Source: Halogranum rubrum (lineage in GTDB: Archaea > Halobacteriota > Halobacteria > Halobacteriales > Haloferacaceae). From it: a stretch of 64,000 nt of DNA. Of the stretch, positions 41,915-52,314 are shown one piece after another. The notes under the pieces were generated by a model. It did no database searches and was not told the origin of the DNA. It saw nothing but the letters and a program-made list of their open reading frames with translations. Position 1 is the stretch's first letter; every line of letters starts with the position of its first letter. The stretch is taken from NCBI RefSeq assembly GCF_900114455.1, contig NZ_FOTC01000001.1, positions 955,058 through 1,019,057 of the forward strand. Reading direction: 5' to 3'. Made by a program: the position numbers and the translations under genes.

Positions 41915-43246
41915 TCACTCGGTCTCGCCGGACTCTTCTCGGTCGTCGACTCGCCGATTGACGTCGAGGTGGTAGTGTGTGAGGATGTCGCGACCGAGGA
42001 GTACTGGATGTGTCATGTGTCCGCGGTCGACGACGTTCGCCGCGACGGTGTGTTGCGTTCCGCCGATACCGACGACGACGTCGACGACGGGGCGACTTTG
42101 CCCACTCTTGACACTGCCCGAACGGACGCGACGCGCGGTGTGAATCGGCCCGGCGCCGATTTCGGCGGCCAGTCGGATGTCGATACTCGTCCGTTCGGCA
42201 CCCGTGTCGGCCTTTCCGACGACCGTCTCGGTGCCCGTCGTCCCGCTGACGACGACTCGCTCGGTGAGACCGATGACGACCGGGTCGTCGGAGACGTACG
42301 AGAGCGGCGTCGGTGCGCAGGCCGGTTCCGAGTCGTCCAGTGTCGCCGCCAAGTCTCGAACTCGCTCCTCGTCGACAGTGCCACCCGCTCGTTCGATAGC
42401 GAGACGAGCGATGTACGGGGCCGGACTCGTCCCCGTCGCTCGATAGAGGCCTCTGAACCCGGCCGTCGGGTTGACTTCGAGGACGTACCACCCGTCGTCG
42501 CCCTCGATGAGGTCGACGCCCGCGTAGTCGAGTCCCATCGCCGCCGTCGCGTCGCGGGCGAGTGTGAGCAGGTCGGGTGTCACTTCGTCGCTCGCGTCTT
42601 CGACGGTACCGCCGAGAGCGACGTTGGTTCGCCAGTCGCCTTCCGGCGCGTACCGAAACATCGACCCGATAACCTCGTCGCCGACGACGTACACGCGGAG
42701 GTCACGTGGCTGCTCCGGCGTCTCGACGAACGCTTGGAGGAAGGCACGGTTGGTTCCGACTTTTCCCGTGAACGACTCCTGTTCGTCGACGCACCACGTT
42801 CCACGTCCGTTGGTGCCGACGGCCGTCTTGTAGACGGCGCTCGGACCGAACAACGGGCGGAACTCCGAGAGGAGGTCCCCGCTGAGTGCGAACACCGTCT
42901 CGGGGGTTCTGATGCCCGCTCGCGCCAAGACGGCGGCCGCGGCCGTCTTGTGGGCCGCTCGACTCGTCGCGTCTGGGCTGTTGAGCATCGGCCGAACGGC
43001 GTGGAGGGTGAGCGCGATACCGTGGTCTTCGAGCGGGTGGTCCGTCTTCGACAGGAGGAGGCGGTTGACGACGACGTCGACGTCCGGACGCAGGTGGACG
43101 CCGTCGTCGGCGAAGTGGACGACGGTGTTCTCCTCGCGTAGCCACTCGGGGACGTGACCGAGTGCGTCGACAGCGTTGAGGATGGCCTTCGTCTCCTTGC
43201 TGTTGTGCAGACTCAACACCCCCACCCGAACGCGACTCTGTCCCAT
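41915..43246 (-). CDS. RimK-type ATP-grasp ligase fused to a retropepsin-like Zn-protease domain
   Basis: In this 443-aa protein residues about 1-300 are a RimK/MptN-like ATP-grasp ligase (AVYKTAVGTNGRGTWCV, RVYVVGDEVIGSMFRY, VDLIEGDDGWYVLEVNP), which joins amino acids such as Glu to a carboxylate acceptor. Residues about 320-443 carry KADTGAERTS (Asp347) and VLLGRDIL, the signature of RimB-like ATP-dependent zinc proteases with a retropepsin fold. The fusion suggests that one protein both adds and removes glutamyl-type modifications. It overlaps no neighbour and is convergent with the RNA ligase gene, 5 bp apart. Confidence 0.87.
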   Translation of the reverse strand: MGQSRVRVGVLSLHNSKETKAILNAVDALGHVPEWLREENTVVHFADDGVHLRPDVDVVVNRLLLSKTDHPLEDHGIALTLHAVRPMLNSPDATSRAAHKTAAAAVLARAGIRTPETVFALSGDLLSEFRPLFGPSAVYKTAVGTNGRGTWCVDEQESFTGKVGTNRAFLQAFVETPEQPRDLRVYVVGDEVIGSMFRYAPEGDWRTNVALGGTVEDASDEVTPDLLTLARDATAAMGLDYAGVDLIEGDDGWYVLEVNPTAGFRGLYRATGTSPAPYIARLAIERAGGTVDEERVRDLAATLDDSEPACAPTPLSYVSDDPVVIGLTERVVVSGTTGTETVVGKADTGAERTSIDIRLAAEIGAGPIHTARRVRSGSVKSGQSRPVVDVVVGIGGTQHTVAANVVDRGHMTHPVLLGRDILTHYHLDVNRRVDDREESGETE

Positions 43247-43297: not shown

Positions 43298-43654
43298 TCA
43301 CGAACTCTCGTCTGCTCGGTGGCGAGTGTCTTCGACGATGCCGACGAGTTCGTCGGTGCCGTGGTATCCGAACAGTTGCTCGACGACTTCGCCCTCGCGA
43401 TAGAACACCAGTGTCGGGACGCCCTGCATCTCCAGTTCGTCGACGAGGTCGAGCGTGTGCGAGGCGTTTATCATCGCGACTGTCACGTCGGTCACACGGG
43501 CGACGTTGCCGAGAATGGGCTCTTGCATCTTGCACTTACCACAGCCGTCGGTGTAGAACTCGACGAGGAGGTGGTCGTGTTCGTCGATAGCGTCGTCGAG
43601 AGCGGTACGGTCGGCGAGGCGGAGGGGCTTGGTCCCGAGTTCGGCGTCGGTCAT
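43298..43654 (-). CDS. thioredoxin-family protein (CGKC)
   Basis: The 118-aa protein has the thioredoxin fold with active site CGKC in FYTDGCGKCKMQEPI and the cis-Pro loop GVPTLVFYREGEVV. CGKC differs from the usual CGPC and alters redox potential. No signal peptide is present, so it should act on cytosolic disulfides or persulfides. The start at 43654 is used, though an in-frame ATG at 43702 exists. It heads the sulfur region together with a second thioredoxin 108 bp upstream on the same strand. Confidence 0.85.
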   Translation of the reverse strand: MTDAELGTKPLRLADRTALDDAIDEHDHLLVEFYTDGCGKCKMQEPILGNVARVTDVTVAMINASHTLDLVDELEMQGVPTLVFYREGEVVEQLFGYHGTDELVGIVEDTRHRADESS

Positions 43655-43762
43655 ACTGTCTGCTACTGTCGGCGACGAGTTAGCTGTTGATGGGTTGTGC
43701 ATCGGAGTACCACAATCGTGCTGTTACTGTCGACGGACCGTCGAGAGGCCCGTGTGTCGGTT

Positions 43763-44107
43763 CTACGCGTACTGGTCGATGAGACTGGCATACTCGTCGG
43801 CCTGGTGGACGCCGACGAGCGACTCTCGTGGTTCGCCGTCTGCATAGAGTACCGTCGTCGGAATCCCTCGGACCCCGTGCTGTGCGGCGAGCTGCTGGAA
43901 CCGGTCGGAGTCGACCTTCAGTACGGTGGCCGGCGTCTCCTGTGCGACCGTCTCCAGAATCGGTTCGAACATCTGACACGGGCCGCACCAGTCGGCGTAG
44001 AAGTCCACGAGGACGACGCCGTGTTCGGTGACGACCGTCGAGAAATCGTCGGCAGTCTCTAGCGTGAGCGGCCGTGTCGTGGTCTGCGTCGCTTGTTCGT
44101 CTGTCAT
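43763..44107 (-). CDS. thioredoxin (WCGPC)
   Basis: The 114-aa protein has the classical active site WCGPC in VDFYADWCGPCQMFEP and the cis-Pro in GIPTTVLYADGEPR. It reduces protein disulfides and may release sulfur from persulfide carriers. The minus-strand TATA box (plus-strand ATATAA at 44131-44136) is centred 26.5 nt upstream of the ATG at 44107 and predicts a leaderless transcript. A GTGTGC/GCACAC pair (44142-44147 and 44165-44170) lies just upstream of the box, resembling motifs at other promoters in this locus. Confidence 0.92.
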   Translation of the reverse strand: MTDEQATQTTTRPLTLETADDFSTVVTEHGVVLVDFYADWCGPCQMFEPILETVAQETPATVLKVDSDRFQQLAAQHGVRGIPTTVLYADGEPRESLVGVHQADEYASLIDQYA

Positions 44108-44141
44108 CGAGACTAGTAGGTGCGCCGTAGATATAACTGTT

Positions 44142-44170
44142 GTGTGCAGTTTGCCCACTATTACGCACAC
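44142..44170. promoter_or_regulatory. inverted GTGTGC/GCACAC motif upstream of thioredoxin
   Basis: GTGTGC (44142-44147) and GCACAC (44165-44170) are inverted arms 17 nt apart, next to the TATA box. The left arm extends to TTGTGTGC and matches half-sites near the TrmB-like regulator genes. Confidence 0.4.
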
Positions 44171-44192
44171 GTGGATAGACGAGGCGACTCGC

Positions 44193-45458
44193 TCAGTCGA
44201 GTCGGTCGGCGAACGCGTACGGGAGTGCGGTGTAGACGAAGGCGTTCCCGGTCAGGGCGTCGACAGTGGTGTACTCGTCGACGGCGTGGGCGGTGTCGGT
44301 GCCGAGTGCAAACTCGATTGTCGGGATACCGACCTCTCTGAGTCGTTTGGCGTCTCCACCGCCGGTTGCACTCCGTCTGTAGACTCGTTCGCCGGTGACC
44401 TCACGTGCGAGAGACGTCGTCGCCGCCACGACGGGACTCTCCGGGTCGACGGCGGTTCCGAGACTCCAGCGGCTCTCGGTGACGACGACGTCGTCGAACG
44501 TCGTCAGATGGCTGTAAATCGCTTCGAGAACGGTTCGCGTGTCGACGCCGGGCGAGACGCGGATGTCGATACGTGCTCGCGCCCGTTCGGGGACGCTGTT
44601 TATCGCCTCACCGCCTTCGAACGTCCCGAGGTTGAGCGTCGGATACTCGAACACGACTCGGGCCGCCTGCTCACCCATGCGAGGCGCGTAGTAGTCCACC
44701 GACTCCTCGATGGTCGCTCGGACCTCGTCGTCGACGTCGAGCGGTCGCTCGCCGAGTCGGTCACGGAGCGCCGTCACGGCCTCGTACAGTCGGTCGATTG
44801 CGTTCGTCCCGAGCATCGGTCGCGACCCGTGCGCCGCCGTCCCTCTCGCTTCGAGGGTCAACCAGATACTGCCGCGGTCTGCGACGGTGACGGAGTGCCG
44901 ACCTGCTTCGCACGTCGTCTCACCGATGACGCAGGCGTCGGCGGTGAGATAGTCGCCGTCGACGAGTGCAGGGAGACCGACACTACCGCCCGTCTCTTCG
45001 TCGCTGACGACGGCGAACGCCAGCGACACGGGCGGGGTCGTGTCCGTCTCGGCGTACGCCAGGGCGGCGACGAACATTGCTGCCAGCGGCCCCTTCATGT
45101 CCGTCGCGCCGCGCCCGTAGAGTCGGTCTCCGACGCGTTCTCCGAGCGGTTCGTACGTCCAGTTCGTCGCGTCGAACGGGACGGTGTCGACGTGGCCGAC
45201 GTACAACAGCGTGCGTTCGGACGCCCCGGGGAGCGTCGCGACGAGGTTCGGTTTTGCAGCGTCGACAGCGACCCGCGCTGTCTCGAACCCGGCGGCGTCG
45301 AACGACTGCGCGAACCACGAGATCAGGTCGGCGGTCTCGCCGGGGGGGTTCTGTGTGTCGAACCCGAGGAGGTCCAGCGTCGTCTCGACGAGTCTCTCGC
45401 GGTTGTCGTCGAGATACCGACCGAGGTGAGACGGAAGCGACGACACGACCGTCCTCAC
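44193..45458 (-). CDS. M20-family metallopeptidase (ArgE/DapE type)
   Basis: The 421-aa protein has the dinuclear-zinc motifs GHVDTVPF, GRGATDMKG and SDEETGG, and a dimerisation insert with TAAHGSRPMLG. Members remove acyl groups or split dipeptides (acetylornithine, succinyl-diaminopimelate, aminoacyl histidine); specificity is not readable here. A GTG at 45458 overlaps the stop of the TrmB-like regulator gene as GTGA, so the two are co-translated. This link to the regulator is unexpected and suggests the peptidase may work on a sulfur-containing dipeptide or acyl-cysteine, which is inference only. Confidence 0.85.
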   Translation of the reverse strand: MRTVVSSLPSHLGRYLDDNRERLVETTLDLLGFDTQNPPGETADLISWFAQSFDAAGFETARVAVDAAKPNLVATLPGASERTLLYVGHVDTVPFDATNWTYEPLGERVGDRLYGRGATDMKGPLAAMFVAALAYAETDTTPPVSLAFAVVSDEETGGSVGLPALVDGDYLTADACVIGETTCEAGRHSVTVADRGSIWLTLEARGTAAHGSRPMLGTNAIDRLYEAVTALRDRLGERPLDVDDEVRATIEESVDYYAPRMGEQAARVVFEYPTLNLGTFEGGEAINSVPERARARIDIRVSPGVDTRTVLEAIYSHLTTFDDVVVTESRWSLGTAVDPESPVVAATTSLAREVTGERVYRRSATGGGDAKRLREVGIPTIEFALGTDTAHAVDEYTTVDALTGNAFVYTALPYAFADRLD

Positions 45459-45859
45459 TCGTCCGCCGCCGGGTCCCCGGCGTGGTCGTTCGCGTACGTC
45501 TCGCGGAACTCGTAGACGAGGTGCCCCATCTCCGCGTACCAGTCGTTGAGCGCCCGCTGTAGGTCGTCGGCGATTCCCGCTGAGTCGGCCACCTGATAGA
45601 CGTGGCAGTAGCCACCCGTCTCGTAGGACTGTTGTTCCTTCTCGACGAGTCCACGCTGACAGAGTCGCTGTACTGCACGATACGTCGTCGACCGCTCCCG
45701 GTCGACGGCGGCCGCGAGTTCGTCGACAGTCGTCGGACGCGCCGCTTCGACGAGCGTCCGGAAGCACCGACGTTCGAGGTTACCGAGTCCGTGGATGCAC
45801 TCCAACAACCCCTCGCACTCCATCTCCTGTCGGAGGTAATCGCGCATCGAGTTCGCCAT
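45455..45859 (-). CDS. TrmB-like HTH regulator with conserved cysteines (copy 1)
   Basis: The 134-aa protein has a winged-helix domain (TVDELAAAVDRERSTTYRAV, then QRLCQRGLVEKE) and a C-terminal helix resembling dimerising coiled coils (ADDLQRALNDWYAEMGHLVY). It is clearly paralogous to the 47325-47735 gene. Both have Cys15, Cys21 and Cys32 at the same positions, upstream of the HTH, which could sense persulfide, thiol state or metal. A TATA box (plus strand 45882-45887) is centred 25.5 nt from the ATG, and a GTGTAC-N5-GTACAC palindrome abuts it, suggesting autoregulation. Confidence 0.85.
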   Translation of the reverse strand: MANSMRDYLRQEMECEGLLECIHGLGNLERRCFRTLVEAARPTTVDELAAAVDRERSTTYRAVQRLCQRGLVEKEQQSYETGGYCHVYQVADSAGIADDLQRALNDWYAEMGHLVYEFRETYANDHAGDPAADE

Positions 45860-45888
45860 ACTCTCTGTTGGACCCCAACCGCCAAAAT

Positions 45889-45907
45889 AGTTGTGTACTA
45901 CTTGTAC
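45889..45907. promoter_or_regulatory. palindromic operator upstream of the regulator gene
   Basis: GTGTAC (45891-45896) and GTACAC (45902-45907) are perfect 6-bp arms with a 5-bp spacer; the left arm extends to TTGTGTAC. The site overlaps the BRE position next to the TATA box at 45882-45887, where a bound regulator could block or recruit the transcription factors. Confidence 0.6.
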
Positions 45908-45928
45908 ACTTTATGCAATACTAATGCC

Positions 45929-46933
45929 CTACGCAGACGACTGCTGCTGTTCGACGCGTCGGTGGCGGAGTTCGCGGACGCTGTTGTAGACGACAGCGCC
46001 GCTGACGAGCACCGCCGACCCGACGATGATGACGAGACTCACCGTGTTCAGCACGTCCAGACCGTAGTTGTTTCCCACCTGCCGGACGGCGACGGCGACT
46101 GCCCCGCCCACCAGCATCAGACCGAAGTAAATCTTGATACCGTCCTCGTCGACGAGACTGGTCGCGGCAGTCCCAATACGCGCACCGAGTGCGCTCCCAG
46201 CGAGGAGCGGTGCGACGATGCTCAGGTCGACACCACCCGACTGGGCGTACAGGAAACTCCCGACGCCGCCCGAGATGGTAATCTGGAGGATATCGGTACC
46301 GACAGCGACGGCTGCTGGAACACCGAACCCGTACATCATCGCGGGCATCAAGAGGAACCCGCCGCCGACGCCCAGGAACCCGGCGAGGACGCCCACGACG
46401 AGGCCAACGGTCAGAATCACCCACAGCGACACCGACGGCGCACCCATCAGCGACACCATCGGCGGGAGACGAATCCCGCTGAACAGTCCGGGTGACTCCT
46501 CGTCGTCTGCGGCGTCGGCGTCCTCGTCGTCGGACGACCCTCGAGAGTCGTAGACGACGAACGCTCCGACCAATCCCAGCAGTCCAACGTAGGCAACGGA
46601 GATGACCGTATCCGCGAGTCCCATCGATTCGAGCGTCAGGACCACTGTCTTTCCCGCCTCGATGCCGGCGGTCACGCTGACGGTCATCAACGCGGCGAGT
46701 TTGTAGTCGACCTGTCCGAGTGAGCGGTGCCGAAGGGCACCGATGACGGACGTCCCGAACACGAACGCGAGACCGCTTCCAACGGCCACGCGCGTGGGGT
46801 ATCCCATCACGATGAGTGCGGGCGTGACGAGGAAACTGCCACCCATTCCGAAGAACCCGAACAGGATGCCGATGAGTACCCCGAACCCGACGAAGAGAAC
46901 GAGGAGGGCCAGACCGATTCCGAGGACTTCCAC
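45929..46933 (-). CDS. TauE/SafE-family sulfite/organosulfonate exporter
   Basis: The 334-aa membrane protein has eight or nine helices with the repeated TauE/SafE pattern GFFGMGGSFLVTPALIVMGY and GFLGVGGGFLLMPAMMYGFG. The family moves sulfite, sulfoacetate or related anions across the membrane. A GTG at 46933 follows the stop of the 49-aa DUF7512-like gene by 2 nt, so the two form one transcript. In the context of rhodanese and sulfur-carrier genes, export of sulfite formed by sulfane oxidation is the likely job. Confidence 0.88.
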   Translation of the reverse strand: MEVLGIGLALLVLFVGFGVLIGILFGFFGMGGSFLVTPALIVMGYPTRVAVGSGLAFVFGTSVIGALRHRSLGQVDYKLAALMTVSVTAGIEAGKTVVLTLESMGLADTVISVAYVGLLGLVGAFVVYDSRGSSDDEDADAADDEESPGLFSGIRLPPMVSLMGAPSVSLWVILTVGLVVGVLAGFLGVGGGFLLMPAMMYGFGVPAAVAVGTDILQITISGGVGSFLYAQSGGVDLSIVAPLLAGSALGARIGTAATSLVDEDGIKIYFGLMLVGGAVAVAVRQVGNNYGLDVLNTVSLVIIVGSAVLVSGAVVYNSVRELRHRRVEQQQSSA

Positions 46934-46935
46934 GA

Positions 46936-47085
46936 CTACTCACCACCGAGGGCGTTCACGACGGTCGGTCCGACCAGACGGACGAGACCGCCGTAGCCGA
47001 CGTATAGCGCGATGGCCTCGGAGAGGACCAATCCGACGAGGACCACCGCCTGCATCGACCCAGACAACGCTTCGATTCCGAACAT
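46936..47085 (-). CDS. 49-aa membrane microprotein (DUF7512-like)
   Basis: This small gene lies directly upstream of the TauE/SafE gene. The product begins MFGIEALSGSMQAVV and has a single hydrophobic helix (VVLVGLVLSEAIALYVGYGG), ending in VVNALGGE. I recall the haloarchaeal family DUF7512 with this shape next to TauE/SafE genes; the assignment is from memory. The spacing to the exporter start is 2 nt, so it is likely an accessory subunit or a translational coupler for the exporter. Confidence 0.72.
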   Translation of the reverse strand: MFGIEALSGSMQAVVLVGLVLSEAIALYVGYGGLVRLVGPTVVNALGGE

Positions 47086-47324
47086 CGACTATCGCACCTC
47101 ACTCGTGCATGGTTTTGTACGAATCATACTTTTCTGTCTACTACCTCGTATCCGGTAGAGTGACTTAACAGTTATGGGGTTACTGTACAATACTACTTCT
47201 GTAGTCGAAGAAGGTCTCTACGGGTGAACGAGGTTGGAACCGACAGTCGTGGACGTTTCGGCAGTGGCGACGCCGCAGAACGGCTTGGTGGCGTCACTGA
47301 AAGTTGAACGAGAATCGAGAGCGG

Positions 47325-47735
47325 TCAGTTTTCGGCGGTCACCGACTGCTCGGCCTGCTCCGACTGCGGATACTTGTCGCGGAACTCGTGGATGAGTTGC
47401 CCCATCTTCGCGTACCACTCGTTGAGCATGGTCTGCATGTTGTCTGCGATTTTCTCGGGGTTCGTCGGGCGATAGACGTGGTAGTAGCCTCCCTGATCGT
47501 AGTTCACCTGTTCTTTCTGGATGAATCCCGTTTGGAGGAGACGCTGGACGGAGCGATAGGCAGTCGACCGTTCGCGGCCGACTTGCTCTGCGACTTCGTC
47601 GACGGTCAGCGGTTCTGCGCTCTCGGTGAGCACGCTGAAACATCGTTTGTCGAGTTCTTTTAGCCCGTGCATACACTCCAGCAGCCCTTCACACTCCATA
47701 TCCTGCTGAATCAGCTCGCTCATCGAGTTAGCCAT
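47325..47735 (-). CDS. TrmB-like HTH regulator with conserved cysteines (copy 2)
   Basis: The 136-aa paralogue of the 45455-45859 protein keeps the same start (MANSM), winged helix (TVDEVAEQVGRERSTAYRSV) and dimerising C-terminus. Cys15, Cys21 and Cys32 are conserved in both. It is read away from the YeeE/YedE genes on the same strand and lies 75 bp downstream of their last stop. A TTGTGCAC half-site (minus strand, 47786-47793) lies upstream, and a TATA-like box (TTTTAT on the minus strand, 47766-47771) is 33 nt from the ATG. Confidence 0.85.
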   Translation of the reverse strand: MANSMSELIQQDMECEGLLECMHGLKELDKRCFSVLTESAEPLTVDEVAEQVGRERSTAYRSVQRLLQTGFIQKEQVNYDQGGYYHVYRPTNPEKIADNMQTMLNEWYAKMGQLIHEFRDKYPQSEQAEQSVTAEN

Positions 47736-47784
47736 ATTTCTTGTCTATCACCTAGTCCTACTGCGATAAAAGGCTTGTCTAGTC

Positions 47785-47803
47785 TGTGCACAATCGCGCA
47801 CAC
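47785..47803. promoter_or_regulatory. TGTGC/GCACA inverted motif upstream of regulator copy 2
   Basis: TGTGC (47785-47789) and GCACA (47798-47802) form 5-bp arms around 8 nt. The minus-strand reading holds TTGTGCAC, which also occurs upstream of tusA (50116-50123). Confidence 0.4.
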
Positions 47804-47810
47804 CCGCCGG

Positions 47811-48284
47811 TCAGTCGGCACCGACGGCACTCGTCGAATCTCCCGAGACACGCGCTCGGAGATACCCCTGTGCGTACGCACCGAGGAACATTCCGCCGAT
47901 TGCCCACAGGATGGGGAGGTTACCGATACCGACGCTGGCGTAGGCCGCACCCGGACAGATGCCCGAGATACCCCACCCGACGCCGAAGATACCGCCCCCG
48001 ACGAGGACGTTCCGGTCCATCGACTTCAGCCGTCGGGTGTACGCGCGGCCGGTCAGCGGTGCGGTCCGGTCCAGACGCGTCGCCACGGCGAACGTCACGG
48101 CGGTGACGGCGGCGGCCCCGCCCATCACGAACAGCAAGCCGAGGTCGTCGAACTGGAGGAAGTCCAACACGACTTCCGGCTTGGCCATCTGGCTGAGACC
48201 GAGGCCGAACCCGAAGACCAGCCCACCGAGGAGAATCACCGGCATGAACAGCGGGTGCCGTTCGTCGGTCGTCTCGGTGCTCAT
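47811..48284 (-). CDS. YeeE/YedE sulfur transporter, C-terminal half
   Basis: The 157-aa membrane protein has four or five helices and the motif GVGWGISGICPGAAYA with Cys110, matching the second half of YeeE/YedE (TsuA) thiosulfate importers. In TsuA, cysteines lining the path hand thiosulfate along. Its ATG overlaps the stop of the N-terminal-half gene (ATGA). The pair replaces the single chain found in many bacteria. Confidence 0.88.
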   Translation of the reverse strand: MSTETTDERHPLFMPVILLGGLVFGFGLGLSQMAKPEVVLDFLQFDDLGLLFVMGGAAAVTAVTFAVATRLDRTAPLTGRAYTRRLKSMDRNVLVGGGIFGVGWGISGICPGAAYASVGIGNLPILWAIGGMFLGAYAQGYLRARVSGDSTSAVGAD

Positions 48285-48754
48285 GGACTCACCCCCAACG
48301 CCTGCACCAACTGCGCCGTGCCGATGGCGACGGCCATGAACGTCACGACGTTCACGATAGAGGTCTGCGAGGCCGAACCGATACCGCAGACGCCGTGGCC
48401 GGAGGTACACCCCTTCCCGAGGCGCGTGCCGACGCCGACGAGGAAGCCGCCGCCGAGCAGTCGCCACCACTGCACCTCGGTGGTAAACCAGCCGTTGAAC
48501 AGGAACGCGTAGATGGCCGCCCCACCGACGATGCCGAGGGTGAAGACGACCCGCCAATCACGCGAGCGGAGATACTTCCCTTGGTTGAACCGAGGGAGCT
48601 TCGACACGTACGACAGCGTCGACTCGAGGAACGTGCTCGCCCCAGCGATGATACCCGTGGCGAGGTAGATGACGGTGGCTCCGAGACCGATGAGGAGCCC
48701 CCCGAGCGCGTAGTGACCGATTCCGTTCGGAAAGAACGTCGCAATATCTAACAT
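48281..48754 (-). CDS. YeeE/YedE sulfur transporter, N-terminal half
   Basis: The 157-aa membrane protein ends its last loops with GTRLGKGCTSGHGVCG, holding Cys116 and Cys123, the TsuA signature for thiosulfate passage. It is the first gene of the split pair and follows the rhodanese-metallo-beta-lactamase gene by 6 nt, so all three are likely co-transcribed. Function: uptake of thiosulfate or another sulfane-sulfur anion across the cytoplasmic membrane. Confidence 0.9.
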   Translation of the reverse strand: MLDIATFFPNGIGHYALGGLLIGLGATVIYLATGIIAGASTFLESTLSYVSKLPRFNQGKYLRSRDWRVVFTLGIVGGAAIYAFLFNGWFTTEVQWWRLLGGGFLVGVGTRLGKGCTSGHGVCGIGSASQTSIVNVVTFMAVAIGTAQLVQALGVSP

Positions 48755-48760
48755 CGTGTC

Positions 48761-49948
48761 TTAGTTCGTCAGCGCGTCCTGACTCGCGGCGCAGTTGTTC
48801 GGGCCGAGTTCGAGTTCGAACGCTTCCTCGTCGGAGGCGTCTTGCTGGCCTAAGTTCGTCGCGATGATGTCCTCGTAGTTGCTCGGTCGCGGTGGCATAT
48901 CCGAGAGGATGAACTCGACGAACTCGTCTCTGTCCATGTGGAGTGCGTCCATCCGACTCTTCAGGTCGCCGAGCGTCGCCCCGTAGGTACCGTCGTCGCG
49001 AGGCGTCGCGGCGTCGCTAAAGTGCGCTGGCGCGACGAGCGTCTCGTCGGAGAGCGAGAGGACCGTATTCTGAAGTGTGTCGTAGAGCGTCCGTGCCGCG
49101 TCGGTCGCACCGTCGTCGCCGTCTTCGAGGTCCGGACGCGCGACGCTCTCGGTGAAGAGTCCGTCACCGGTCGCGAGCACCGTCCCGTCGACGAGGTAGG
49201 AGGTCATCCCCGAGGTGTGCCCCGGCGTGTGGAGCACCTCGATGTCGACGTTCCCGACCGTGAGCACGTCGCCGTCGGCGACCGTCTCGTAGTCGCTGTC
49301 GTAGTCGACGCCACGAGCGACGGCGGGTTCGGGGAGAATCGCGGTCGCGTCCGTCTCGGTGGCGAGCGTCCGAACACCCGAGATGTGGTCGGCGTGCACG
49401 TGCGTGTCGAGTGCGTACGTCAGGTCGGCCCCGAGCGCCCGGGCGTCCTGTACGTACTCCGACGCGAAGGCTCGAAGCGGGTCGATGACGGCCGCTTCGC
49501 CCGCTGAAACGACGAGGTAGGCGAGACACCCGCTGGAGGGACGACGGTACTGGGCGATGGTCGCCTCGGAGTCGACGTCGAGTTCGGCGTACTCGTAGAT
49601 ACGTGCCCACCCCTTCATGCCGCGTTCGAGGTTCGTCGCGTCGACGCCCTCCTCTTTCAGGAGTCCGGCGATAAACTCGCTGGAGCCACCTTTCGCACAG
49701 ACGACGACGACCGGTTGGTCCTCGGGGAGGCGTGCCAACAGGTCTTCGTCGACGCCGTCGAGGAGTTCGAAGTACGGTACGTTGAGCACGTCGACGTTCT
49801 CGCCGTCGATGCGCCACTTCTCGAACTCGTTCTCCGCACGGACGTCGAGGATAGTCAGAGGCTCGTCAGCGTCGACCTTCTCCTTGAGCTCCGTCGGCTG
49901 TATCGCCTCGACTGCCACGTCCGGTTCGGGGAACTGTGAATCGCTCAT
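48761..49948 (-). CDS. rhodanese-metallo-beta-lactamase fusion (persulfide dioxygenase type), copy 1
   Basis: The 395-aa protein has an N-terminal rhodanese domain with catalytic Cys84 (VVCAKGGSSE) and then a metallo-beta-lactamase domain with HVHADH (183-188) and GHTSGM. Similar fusions join sulfur transfer with glutathione- or thiol-persulfide oxidation to sulfite. The tail ends in LELGPNNCAAS, and a matching tail with Cys is found in the second copy at 51160-52314, so this Cys may be a sulfur acceptor. The gene leads the operon into the YeeE/YedE pair. Confidence 0.88.
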   Translation of the reverse strand: MSDSQFPEPDVAVEAIQPTELKEKVDADEPLTILDVRAENEFEKWRIDGENVDVLNVPYFELLDGVDEDLLARLPEDQPVVVVCAKGGSSEFIAGLLKEEGVDATNLERGMKGWARIYEYAELDVDSEATIAQYRRPSSGCLAYLVVSAGEAAVIDPLRAFASEYVQDARALGADLTYALDTHVHADHISGVRTLATETDATAILPEPAVARGVDYDSDYETVADGDVLTVGNVDIEVLHTPGHTSGMTSYLVDGTVLATGDGLFTESVARPDLEDGDDGATDAARTLYDTLQNTVLSLSDETLVAPAHFSDAATPRDDGTYGATLGDLKSRMDALHMDRDEFVEFILSDMPPRPSNYEDIIATNLGQQDASDEEAFELELGPNNCAASQDALTN

Positions 49949-50115
49949 CTTCACTCCACTGTACCGGGTCGTTCGCCTTAAGAGTTTGCATAGTATTTTG
50001 AAGATTATACAATACCGCTTGGCTCCCTTTCTCTCCAAACCGCTCATTTACGGCCCAATACTCCATTTAGCGCGCGTTGAGCATCCCTCTCGCCCGCTCT
50101 ACCGACTCGAATAAT

Positions 50116-50123
50116 GTGCACAA
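50116..50123 (-). promoter_or_regulatory. TTGTGCAC motif upstream of tusA
   Basis: Read on the minus strand this is TTGTGCAC, identical to the half-site before regulator copy 2. A TATA box TTTTAT (50143-50148) lies 20 bp downstream on the plus strand, with the tusA start at 50197. Confidence 0.4.
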
Positions 50124-50196
50124 GTCCCATCTATCGACACACTTTTATCGCTCAGACCAATATTGTGTGGTACGTCCAATAACGGACAGACCAACC

Positions 50197-50451
50197 ATGA
50201 GCAGCGAACTAGATTCCAGTGAAGTCACCGAGACGCTCGACGTACAGGGAGCCAACTGCCCGATGCCGGTCATCAAGACGAAGCAAGCCATCGACGGCCT
50301 GTCGACGGGCGACGTCTTGGAAGTCGTCGCCACCGACTCGGGGAGCATGAGCGACATCAAGGGGTGGGCAGAGACGACAGACGGCGTCGAACTCGTCGAC
50401 CAGGTCGAAGGCGACGGCGTCTACACCCACTACGTCCGCAAGACGGAGTGA
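50197..50451 (+). CDS. tusA: TusA-family sulfur carrier
   Basis: The 84-aa protein has the TusA signature with sulfur-carrying Cys21 in ANCPMPVIKTKQAI. TusA proteins receive persulfide from rhodaneses or desulfurases and pass it on to DsrE-type or thiolation proteins. The gene heads an operon with a DsrE-like gene 6 nt downstream, and faces the divergent rhodanese-MBL gene across 248 bp. No tRNA-thiolation MnmA gene is nearby, so a dissimilatory or detoxification role is as likely as tRNA modification. Confidence 0.92.
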   Translation: MSSELDSSEVTETLDVQGANCPMPVIKTKQAIDGLSTGDVLEVVATDSGSMSDIKGWAETTDGVELVDQVEGDGVYTHYVRKTE

Positions 50452-50457
50452 TTCGTC

Positions 50458-51051
50458 GTGAGTACTGACACCTCAACCGCCTCGGACACGTCGGAGACGG
50501 TGGACGAACCGGACGCCGCCACCGTCGCCGAGTTAGAGTCCCGTATCGAGGAGTTGGAGGCGAGCCTCGCGGCAGTCGAGGCGGACGACGGCCCCAAGAA
50601 GATGTCTATCATCGCGACGAAGGGCACCCTCGACATGGCCTACCCGCCGCTCATCCTCGCCAGCACCGCCGCCGCCTTCGGGTGGGAGGTGCAGGTGTTC
50701 CACACCTTCTGGGGGCTCGACATCCTCCACGAGGAGCGTTCGAAGAACCTTAAACTGAGCGCCGTCGGCAACCCGAACATGCCGATGCCGAACGCCATCG
50801 CCGCCCTTCCGGGGATGGACTCGATGGCGACGAAGATGATGCGCAAGAAGATCGCCGACAACAACACCGCCTCTATCGAGGAACTCATCCAGACCTCACT
50901 CGACATGGGCGTCGAGTTCCAGGCCTGTCAGATGACTATCGACCTGATGGACTACGACGAGGACGACTTCTACGACGGCGTCACCACCGGCGTCGGGGCC
51001 GCGACCGCCCTGCAGTTCATGGGCGACGCGGACGTCCAACTGTTCGTCTAG
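50458..51051 (+). CDS. DsrE/DrsE2-family sulfur carrier with N-terminal coiled coil
   Basis: The 197-aa protein has an acidic, Ser/Thr-rich start, a heptad-like coiled coil (about 20-42, VAELESRIEELEASLAAVEA) and a DsrE2-type domain with SIIATKGTLDMAYPPLILAS and Cys157 in VEFQACQMTIDLM. It passes sulfane sulfur with TusA. A GTG at 50458 starts 6 nt after the tusA stop. The DsrE2 form with long helical insert is typical of archaea and of bacteria with rhodanese-TusA-DsrE modules. Confidence 0.87.
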   Translation: MSTDTSTASDTSETVDEPDAATVAELESRIEELEASLAAVEADDGPKKMSIIATKGTLDMAYPPLILASTAAAFGWEVQVFHTFWGLDILHEERSKNLKLSAVGNPNMPMPNAIAALPGMDSMATKMMRKKIADNNTASIEELIQTSLDMGVEFQACQMTIDLMDYDEDDFYDGVTTGVGAATALQFMGDADVQLFV

Positions 51052-51159
51052 AGCAGCTAGAACACAGACCCCCCGCCGGTTCGCGTCGGCGTGGAGTAGT
51101 GTCCGGTTCGTAGTCGACTACACACCAGCTTAACCGACTCACACGCGTACCTACTACCA

Positions 51160-52314
51160 ATGACAGACGCTATCACCGCGACCGAACTCCGCGACCGAAT
51201 CGACAGCAACACCACCTTCGAACTCGTCGACACGCGCCCCGAAGACAACTACGAGTCGTGGCACATCGACGGAGCCGTGAACTACCCGTACAAACCCGAC
51301 GACGACTTCGACCCCGAGACGTTCAAATCGGAGACGGGAATCGAGGAAGACGACACCGTCTACACCATCTGCGCGAAGGGCATCTCCTCGAACGACTTCG
51401 CGGACGAGTTGAAGAGAAACGGCTTCGAGGACGTCACCGTCGTCGACGACGGGATGGAGGCGTGGAGCGCCGTCTACGACGTCGTCGAGATTCCGACCGA
51501 CTCCGAGAGCGTCGAAATCTTCCAGATTCAGCGCCGGGCGAAAGGCTGTCTCGGCTACCTCGTCGGGTCGACGGCGACCCGTGAGGCCGCCGTCGTCGAC
51601 GCCTCCAGACACACCGACGAGTTCGTCGCCGCTGCCGACGAACACGGCTACACCGTCACCGACGTCTTCGACACGCACGTCCACGCCGACCACGTCTCGG
51701 GCGGTCGACAGTTGGCGAACGAGGTCGGCGCGACGTACTACCTCGGCGCAGACGCCCGCGAACGCGGCGTCGAGTACGAGTACGACGCCCTCGGCGCGAA
51801 CGACGTCGTCCGCGTCGGCGACGTGGAGATAAAAGCGCTCTCGACACCCGGACACACCTCGGAGATGGTGAGCTACCTCGTCGACGGCGAGGCCGTACTG
51901 ACCGGTGACACGCTCTTCGTCGGCTCTGTCGGCCGGACGGAACTTCAGTTCGGTGGCGGCGGTGCTGCCGACGGCGCACACCTGCTCTACGAGTCGCTCC
52001 ACCGGACGCTGCTCGCCGAACCGGACAGCGTCACCGTCCTCCCCGGCCACTTCGCACTGAGCAACGACGGGGAAGCCACTGACGGCACGCCGGGTGAACC
52101 CATCCTCGCGAGTATCGGCGACCTTCGACGCGGACAGGAACTCTTGCAGGCCGACGAGGAGACGTTCGTCGACCGACTCACCGACCGCCTTCCCGAAAAG
52201 CCGCCGAACTACGAGACGGTCATCGACGTGAACACCGGCAGAACGAAACTCGACGACGAACAGGAGGCGACGGAGTTGGAACTCGGTCCGAACCGCTGTG
52301 CGGCGAGCGAGTAA
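51160..52314 (+). CDS. rhodanese-metallo-beta-lactamase fusion, copy 2
   Basis: The 384-aa protein has the same order as the 48761-49948 product: rhodanese domain with Cys71 (ICAKGISSN) and then metallo-beta-lactamase with HVHADH (173-178), CLGYLVG and the metal ligand GHTSEM. The tail ends in LELGPNRCAASE, again with a Cys. Copy 2 is expected to be a persulfide dioxygenase or a thiol-sulfur transferase; the two may differ in donor. It is 108 bp downstream of the DsrE gene, and the gap holds a plausible terminator-promoter region with nothing certain. Confidence 0.88.
   Translation: MTDAITATELRDRIDSNTTFELVDTRPEDNYESWHIDGAVNYPYKPDDDFDPETFKSETGIEEDDTVYTICAKGISSNDFADELKRNGFEDVTVVDDGMEAWSAVYDVVEIPTDSESVEIFQIQRRAKGCLGYLVGSTATREAAVVDASRHTDEFVAAADEHGYTVTDVFDTHVHADHVSGGRQLANEVGATYYLGADARERGVEYEYDALGANDVVRVGDVEIKALSTPGHTSEMVSYLVDGEAVLTGDTLFVGSVGRTELQFGGGGAADGAHLLYESLHRTLLAEPDSVTVLPGHFALSNDGEATDGTPGEPILASIGDLRRGQELLQADEETFVDRLTDRLPEKPPNYETVIDVNTGRTKLDDEQEATELELGPNRCAASE

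Follow-up and report, generated by a model that had tools for sequence, protein, structure and literature searches.

A probable sulfane-sulfur oxidation and detoxification regulon of Halobacteria, with a candidate operator and a CX5C branch of OxsR-like regulators

In the current analysis, we describe a compact sulfur locus at positions 43298–52314 of a 64,000-nucleotide stretch of Halogranum rubrum DNA (hereafter, the window), which belongs to a haloarchaeal genome of 4.57 Mb. An earlier reading of the letters alone (the sequence-only reading) had proposed that these genes form one system for the uptake, relay, oxidation, and export of sulfane sulfur under the control of thiol-sensing repressors. 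We consider it quite probable that they belong to a haloarchaeal regulon for the oxidation and detoxification of sulfide and sulfane sulfur.

Gene content of the locus

Pfam and family profile searches found every gene of the sequence-only reading at its place and, in addition, an overlooked M20 deacylase that separates the thioredoxins from the first regulator. The DsrE-type carrier is more precisely a DsrE2 (top named match in Halogranum amylolyticum, 90%), and the two fusions of rhodanese and metallo-beta-lactamase (MBL) domains are both present, with the rhodanese N-terminal and the MBL domain C-terminal. The genes are as follows (E, expectation value):

43298..43702, minus strand: Trx1, thioredoxin-like protein, CXXC with Cys54/Cys57 (PF00085, E 1.7e-15)
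43763..44107, minus strand: Trx2, thioredoxin, WCGPC (PF00085, E 6e-25); start set at an internal Met behind the operator
44193..45440, minus strand: M20 ArgE/DapE-type deacylase, start uncertain (PF01546, E 9.6e-29; TIGR01910, E 3e-60)
45455..45859, minus strand: HTH1, OxsR/Lrs14-like winged-helix regulator, CX5C (C15, C21) (PF01978, E 1e-12; NF053606, E 1.6e-16)
45929..46933, minus strand: TauE/SafE exporter, probable sulfite/thiosulfate efflux protein (PF01925, E 4e-41)
46936..47085, minus strand: DUF7512 microprotein, 49 amino acids, one hydrophobic stretch (PF24352, E 1.7e-20)
47325..47735, minus strand: HTH2, conserved CX5C winged-helix regulator (PF01978, E 4.5e-17)
47811..48287, minus strand: YeeB, DUF6691 half of a split YeeE/YedE, GICPG Cys (PF20398, E 1.9e-19)
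48281..48754, minus strand: YeeA, Sulf_transp half of the split YeeE/YedE, GCTSGHGVCG (PF04143, E 2.6e-13, model positions 177-306)
48761..49948, minus strand: RMa, rhodanese-MBL protein (PF00581 and PF00753; relatives ETHE1, BpPRF, 3tp9)
50197..50451, plus strand: TusA sulfur carrier, CPMP (PF01206, E 4e-21)
50458..51051, plus strand: DsrE2 sulfur carrier, QACQMT Cys (PF13686, E 1e-52; NF047629, 179 bits against a cut-off of 210)
51160..52314, plus strand: RMb, second rhodanese-MBL protein, accessory (PF00581 and PF00753)

The likely transcription units are HTH1-M20, Trx2-Trx1 (Trx1 being probably co-transcribed with Trx2), DUF7512-TauE, HTH2, and RMa-YeeA-YeeB, with TusA-DsrE2 running divergently and RMb behind it. 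The locus is adjoined by a RimK-type ATP-grasp protein (41915-43246) whose C-terminal domain resembles an aspartyl/zinc protease.

Conservation across the class

The survey covered 145 genomes of the class Halobacteria, with neighbourhoods counted at 62 sampled DsrE2 loci and gene order compared in 71 fetched neighbourhoods; the genomes are related, and the 80 named and 71 unnamed loci share species, so that percentages given here describe consistency rather than independent events. DsrE2 was found in 131 of the genomes, DUF6691 in 133, and DUF7512 in 117. DsrE2 and DUF6691 occur together in 130 genomes, one alone in 1 and 3, and neither in 11 (Fisher p 4e-13, a value that is optimistic given the kinship of the genomes), and they lie within 5 kb of each other in 104 of the 114 genomes for which both places were listed. 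TusA adjoins DsrE2 (within 1 kb) in 61/62 loci, RMa lies within 4 kb of it in 57/62, both YeeE halves within 4 kb in 55/62, and TauE with DUF7512 within 9.5 kb in approximately 40/62. The order TauE-DUF7512, YeeB-YeeA-RMa, and divergent TusA-DsrE2 recurs across families. This conserved spacing, together with the co-occurrence of DsrE2 and DUF6691, led us to reject chance clustering.

The core thus consists of a rhodanese-MBL protein and the split YeeE, facing TusA and DsrE2, plus DUF7512-TauE. RMb (6/62 loci), HTH1, M20, and Trx1 (2/62 loci) are accessory; the M20 deacylase interrupts the gene run and lies within 9.5 kb of DsrE2 in 22/62 loci. It recurs with the cluster in relatives, the best of them approximately 60% identical, with an operator site upstream in some. 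Scattering of the genes in relatives had been named in advance as evidence against a single system; they stay clustered, and the conserved neighbourhood strengthens the proposal. The sequence-only reading also knew of no haloarchaeal system with this content, a statement that did not hold: the core recurs nearly class-wide, and Halobacterium salinarum NRC-1 carries the set on pNRC100 under labels such as 'YeeE/YedE family protein' and 'hypothetical protein'. Outside the class, no strong DUF6691 match was found in a sample of the phylum (best E 3.7e-8).

In the window, DUF7512 ends 2 nt before the start of TauE, and in 43 of 44 sampled cases it is the gene immediately before TauE, in the same orientation. 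The simplest reading of this adjacency is that the microprotein is a subunit or chaperone of TauE. Among 45 DUF7512 copies far from the core, 10 have a sulfide:quinone oxidoreductase (SQR) within 10 kb, a proximity that is suggestive only. A search of the open-access literature on DUF7512 found no paper.

Several neighbours vary between loci. In NRC-1, cydAB and trxA lie beside the sulfur core (L282, 7141-19741), and several more of the fetched loci contain CydA homologs. Cytochrome bd oxidase is sulfide-resistant in bacteria, and its presence near the core fits with exposure to sulfide. A PiT-family transporter gene, which might move sulfate or sulfite, often follows YeeB (L282, 12928-14103; 74/140 related loci) and is missing in the window. 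Plasmids and megaplasmids of haloarchaea often carry the cluster, with a match to YeeA in 91 plasmid records, which suggests mobility.

Operator motif and CX5C regulators

An inverted repeat, TATTG-N11-CAATA, was found in 83 of 98 non-redundant divergent regions between RMa and TusA, while shuffled regions yielded no 5-bp palindrome above 3. The window holds one exact and one single-mismatch copy in this region, and two copies occurred in 0/100 shuffled windows. Exact sites across the 145 genomes number 419, compared with 52 for the reversed control. A position weight matrix (PWM) was then trained on a hold-out basis, without the window and its nearest relatives, and compared with a null of 100 simulated 64-kb windows, in which 95% of the maxima fell below 9.5 and the largest reached 13.0; the four best window sites exceed 13.0. 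The six best places in the whole 64 kb (49994, 47172, 50161, 44140, 45900, and 47113) all lie before transcription units of the locus. The sites, with hold-out PWM scores where available, are:

49994..50014: predicted operator of RMa-YeeA-YeeB, one mismatch (31.6)
50161..50181: predicted operator of TusA-DsrE2, exact copy, between the TATA box (about 50143) and the TusA ATG
47172..47192: operator-like site approximately 87 nt upstream of DUF7512-TauE (27.8)
47113-47133: weaker second site before DUF7512-TauE (10.0)
44140..44160: operator-like site upstream of Trx2-Trx1 (16.2)
45900..45920: operator-like site upstream of HTH1-M20 (12.4)
47773..47793: weak, degenerate operator-like site before HTH2, positioned ahead of the TATA box as is usual (PWM 1.5, on its own not significant)

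Among relatives, a site with a score of 10 or more stands before TusA in 97% of cases, Trx2 in 94% (79/84), the SQR unit in 90%, RMa in 88%, and DUF7512 in 87% (82/94), against 1/327 background genes. Two of the strongest operator sites in the window's genome (G000) lie away from sulfur genes: L352 (G000:C13:81654) is flanked by a DUF302-like gene and, divergently, a copper-ATPase-like gene, and L351 (G000:C13:74058) adjoins short open reading frames.

Profile matches identify HTH1 and HTH2 as single winged-helix proteins of the TrmB/Lrs14 type, and CX5C is present in 94% of 39 HTH2 locus homologs. The best fold matches of an HTH2 model (predicted local distance difference test, pLDDT, 83) were Methanosarcina 3r0a and Sulfolobus AbfR2 6cmv, both of which had served as templates for OxsR of Haloferax volcanii (HVO_2970, arCOG02242; PMC9426492). 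Through an alignment with C17 of 3r0a, C21 corresponds to C24 of OxsR, which forms an intersubunit disulfide (PMC9426492). C15 is an extra cysteine six residues earlier. Both cysteines occur in 119/121 strong homologs; among OxsR-type paralogs in the alignment, C21 is present in all and C15 in none, so that CX5C marks a sister branch of OxsR rather than OxsR itself. The two branches share the single winged-helix TrmB-family architecture, the C24-equivalent cysteine on the N-terminal helix, and the 3r0a-like fold; OxsR, however, has one cysteine instead of CX5C, a CG-rich rather than AT-rich motif, and an oxidant-stress regulon (PMC9426492).

The operator is distributed accordingly between these branches: a site lies upstream of 72/104 CX5C regulator genes near the core and of 0/19 OxsR-type genes, which ties it to the CX5C branch and suggests that CX5C regulators are autoregulated. 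In regions without the core, 7/11 CX5C regulators have a site above the 99th background percentile (p ~1e-7 against background, with kinship ignored). CX5C regulators occur in genomes or regions of this kind (L287, L288, L291-L296), in most cases preceded by an operator-like site. In four genomes that lack a strong CX5C homolog, the numbers of exact sites are 0, 3, 1, and 0, too small a sample for a conclusion. The best-surviving alternative, which we regard as unlikely, is that the operator belongs to another regulator encoded elsewhere and that the CX5C proteins control something else. The weak HTH2 site in the window and the occurrence of CX5C regulators where the core is lacking would fit such an arrangement; against it, sites stand before most CX5C regulator genes, near the core and partly away from it, and before no OxsR-type paralog, and no further regulator family is constant in the loci. 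We therefore favour the CX5C proteins as the probable ligands of TATTG-N11-CAATA.

In front of RMa, DUF7512, Trx2, and HTH1, the site immediately precedes a TATA-like element, over or near the B recognition element (BRE); in front of TusA, it follows the TATA box and covers the probable start. OxsR activates from the position directly upstream of the TATA box (PMC9426492). The thiol-sensing repressors of the sequence-only reading appear to be thiol-type regulators as proposed; 'repressor' is too definite a label, since most sites occupy the position from which OxsR activates, and a dual activator/repressor is possible.

The locus has no regulator of the ArsR (BigR), CsoR (CstR/YrkD), or sigma54 FisR type, its regulators being TrmB/Lrs14-type winged helices. 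In bacteria, the cysteine pairs of CstR and BigR sense sulfane sulfur, and by analogy the CX5C dithiol may do so in Halobacteria.

Sulfur chemistry and interpretation

YeeA and YeeB match the two halves of the Sulf_transp model. The YeeB cysteine is conserved in 100% of 66 sequences, and in YeeA (24 sequences) C116 is nearly invariant and C123 invariant; the locus therefore holds two adjacent half-YeeE genes, each with its conserved cysteine, as in the bacterial YedE1E2 pairs of Cupriavidus and Sinorhizobium, which likewise have a persulfide dioxygenase (PDO) partner nearby (PMC10812762). On Sinorhizobium meliloti pSymA, YeeA-YeeB homologs with the same Cys motifs adjoin MBL and TauE-like genes. 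YedE1E2 pairs import zero-valent sulfur in bacteria, whereas single-chain YeeE imports thiosulfate; E. coli that contains PDO uses polysulfide faster once given a cloned pair from Cupriavidus or S. meliloti, both subunits and both conserved cysteines being required in the Cupriavidus pair, and single-chain YedE3 has no such effect (PMC10812762). Since the split pair resembles this importer, polysulfide or S0 is likelier as the substrate than thiosulfate, and plain thiosulfate uptake was dropped as the first choice. A selenium-type YedE/YedF was rejected on account of weak matches only. A PDB sequence search with YeeA and TauE returned no match.

The PDB relatives of RMa and RMb include MBL-rhodanese fusions as well as ETHE1 and BpPRF. 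The rhodanese cysteine and the MBL motifs are present in both, with THVHADH, TPGHTS, and TGD corresponding to the THxHADH, GHT, and D metal motifs of the ETHE1-type MBL fold, and RMa is a probable persulfide dioxygenase/sulfurtransferase; solved bacterial fusions have the MBL domain first and the rhodanese after, the reverse of the haloarchaeal order. The carrier cysteines are conserved in 97% (TusA) and 92% (DsrE2) of homologs. By homology and conserved neighbourhood, the proposed chain of import, carrier relay, persulfide oxidation, and sulfite export would stand as one unit, with thiosulfate no longer its likeliest substrate.

SQR is part of the gene set in relatives: it occurs in 80/145 genomes at the threshold used, and 55 of the 79 SQR-bearing genomes with listed places have it no more than 20 kb from DsrE2, DUF6691, or DUF7512. 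The window has none; its genome carries SQR at C6:474105, 0.53 Mb from the locus, and 6 kb from this SQR lie a CX5C regulator and two strong operator-like sites. A Halorubrum-type locus (L093) holds an SQR related to human SQOR, a cysteine desulfurase-like protein, a thioredoxin, and a second TusA. No Dsr, sHdr, or Sox enzyme was seen among the labelled neighbours, for which no dedicated search was made.

This gene logic equals that of the yrk/sqr/pdo, cst, and bigR systems (PMC9918477; PMC7315123), and the locus is best read as an archaeal counterpart of Bacillus yrk, Staphylococcus cst, and proteobacterial bigR systems, with which it shares an MBL-fold protein with rhodanese, a TauE exporter, and a split YeeE as features of units of this type. 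The yrkD-yrkJ/ydfQ/nreBC/sqr/pdo cluster of Bacillus licheniformis likewise encodes DsrE-like and TusA-like proteins, a rhodanese, an MBL PDO (yrkH), TauE, and a thioredoxin, with SQR and a two-Cys sulfane-sulfur repressor in the same cluster; it differs in its CsoR-family YrkD and NreBC in place of OxsR-type winged helices, and neither a split YeeE pair nor DUF7512 is reported for it (PMC9918477). The bigR and yeeE-yedE-pdo2 operons of Acinetobacter (PMC7315123) and of Xylella and Agrobacterium (PMC5823870) place a split YeeE/YedE by a persulfide dioxygenase and have a dithiol sensor; their regulator, however, is the ArsR-family BigR, and a TusA-DsrE2 pair is not described there (PMC7315123; PMC5823870). 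As far as it is cited in PMC9918477 and PMC7315123, the Staphylococcus aureus cst system (CstR, CstA, CstB, SQR, TauE) combines TusA/DsrE/rhodanese functions, an MBL-rhodanese PDO, SQR, and TauE, and differs in its CsoR-type regulator and in CstA being one fused protein.

In the mechanism that we propose, the two half-YeeE proteins would together import zero-valent sulfur or polysulfide in the manner of YedE1E2, and TusA and DsrE2 would take up the imported sulfur as protein persulfide. The rhodanese-MBL proteins would hand it to a low-molecular-weight thiol and use O2 to oxidise the resulting persulfide to sulfite; sulfite or thiosulfate would leave the cell through TauE, of which the DUF7512 microprotein is a probable subunit, and leftover persulfides would be reduced by the thioredoxins. 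SQR, elsewhere in the window's genome, would supply persulfide from sulfide. The CX5C OxsR-type regulators would bind TATTG-N11-CAATA, and modification of their dithiol by sulfane sulfur would switch the units on.

A number of observations weigh against this interpretation. The site before HTH2 in the window scores low, neither RMb nor Trx1 is preceded by an operator site of its own, 3/11 CX5C regulators in core-less regions are without any site, and some core-less genomes are without exact sites. The parallel to YedE1E2 consists of approximately 40-47% identity in the conserved half plus the Cys motifs, and the AlphaFold model of YeeA (pLDDT 53) was too poor for a fold search. In addition, the sulfide step is left unaccounted for in the 65/145 genomes that lack SQR at the threshold used.

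An assimilation or trafficking role, in which thiosulfate or S0 is taken up and passed by TusA/DsrE2 to cysteine, tRNA thiolation, or molybdopterin, with the MBL proteins acting as hydrolases, seems to us improbable. The locus TusA is the sole match above the cut-off of a family search in the window's genome, TusA is generally known to serve tRNA thiolation in E. coli, a cysteine desulfurase-like gene lies near clusters of relatives, and single-chain YeeE works with the TusA-like YeeD in thiosulfate uptake (PMC11073785). However, the relatives of the MBL proteins are persulfide dioxygenases, an exporter and SQR would make little sense in such a regulon, viable genomes have lost TusA and DsrE2 along with the cluster, and split pairs differ in behaviour from single-chain YeeE (PMC10812762). 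Least probable is a general OxsR-like regulon for thiol or oxidant stress (hypochlorite, disulfide stress) with reactive sulfur as a mere by-product, which would suit the OxsR-type regulators with their 3r0a-type fold, OxsR being a thiol switch that activates thiol genes (PMC9426492), and the thioredoxins in the regulon, but conflicts with an OxsR branch that lacks C15, has a published CG-rich motif, and has no such site upstream, and with the sulfur-specific nature of the most consistent targets.

Oxidation and detoxification of sulfide and sulfane sulfur thus remains the reading that we prefer. A search of the open-access literature found no account of the sensing and disposal of sulfide and polysulfide in haloarchaea, and it is the control, in the form of the operator and the CX5C regulator branch, that appears to be new here. 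On balance, we lean towards a class-wide archaeal sulfane-sulfur regulon with a new OxsR-like CX5C branch, the operator TATTG-N11-CAATA, and a TauE exporter that includes DUF7512 as its dedicated membrane microprotein. The idea can be tested directly, as it names the genes involved, two cysteines of a regulator branch that may act as sensors, an operator sequence, and individual target genes in model organisms. If it is true, archaea would have reached dithiol sensing of reactive sulfur through a regulator family other than the bacterial ArsR and CsoR families, and the uncharacterised microprotein family DUF7512 would gain a role.

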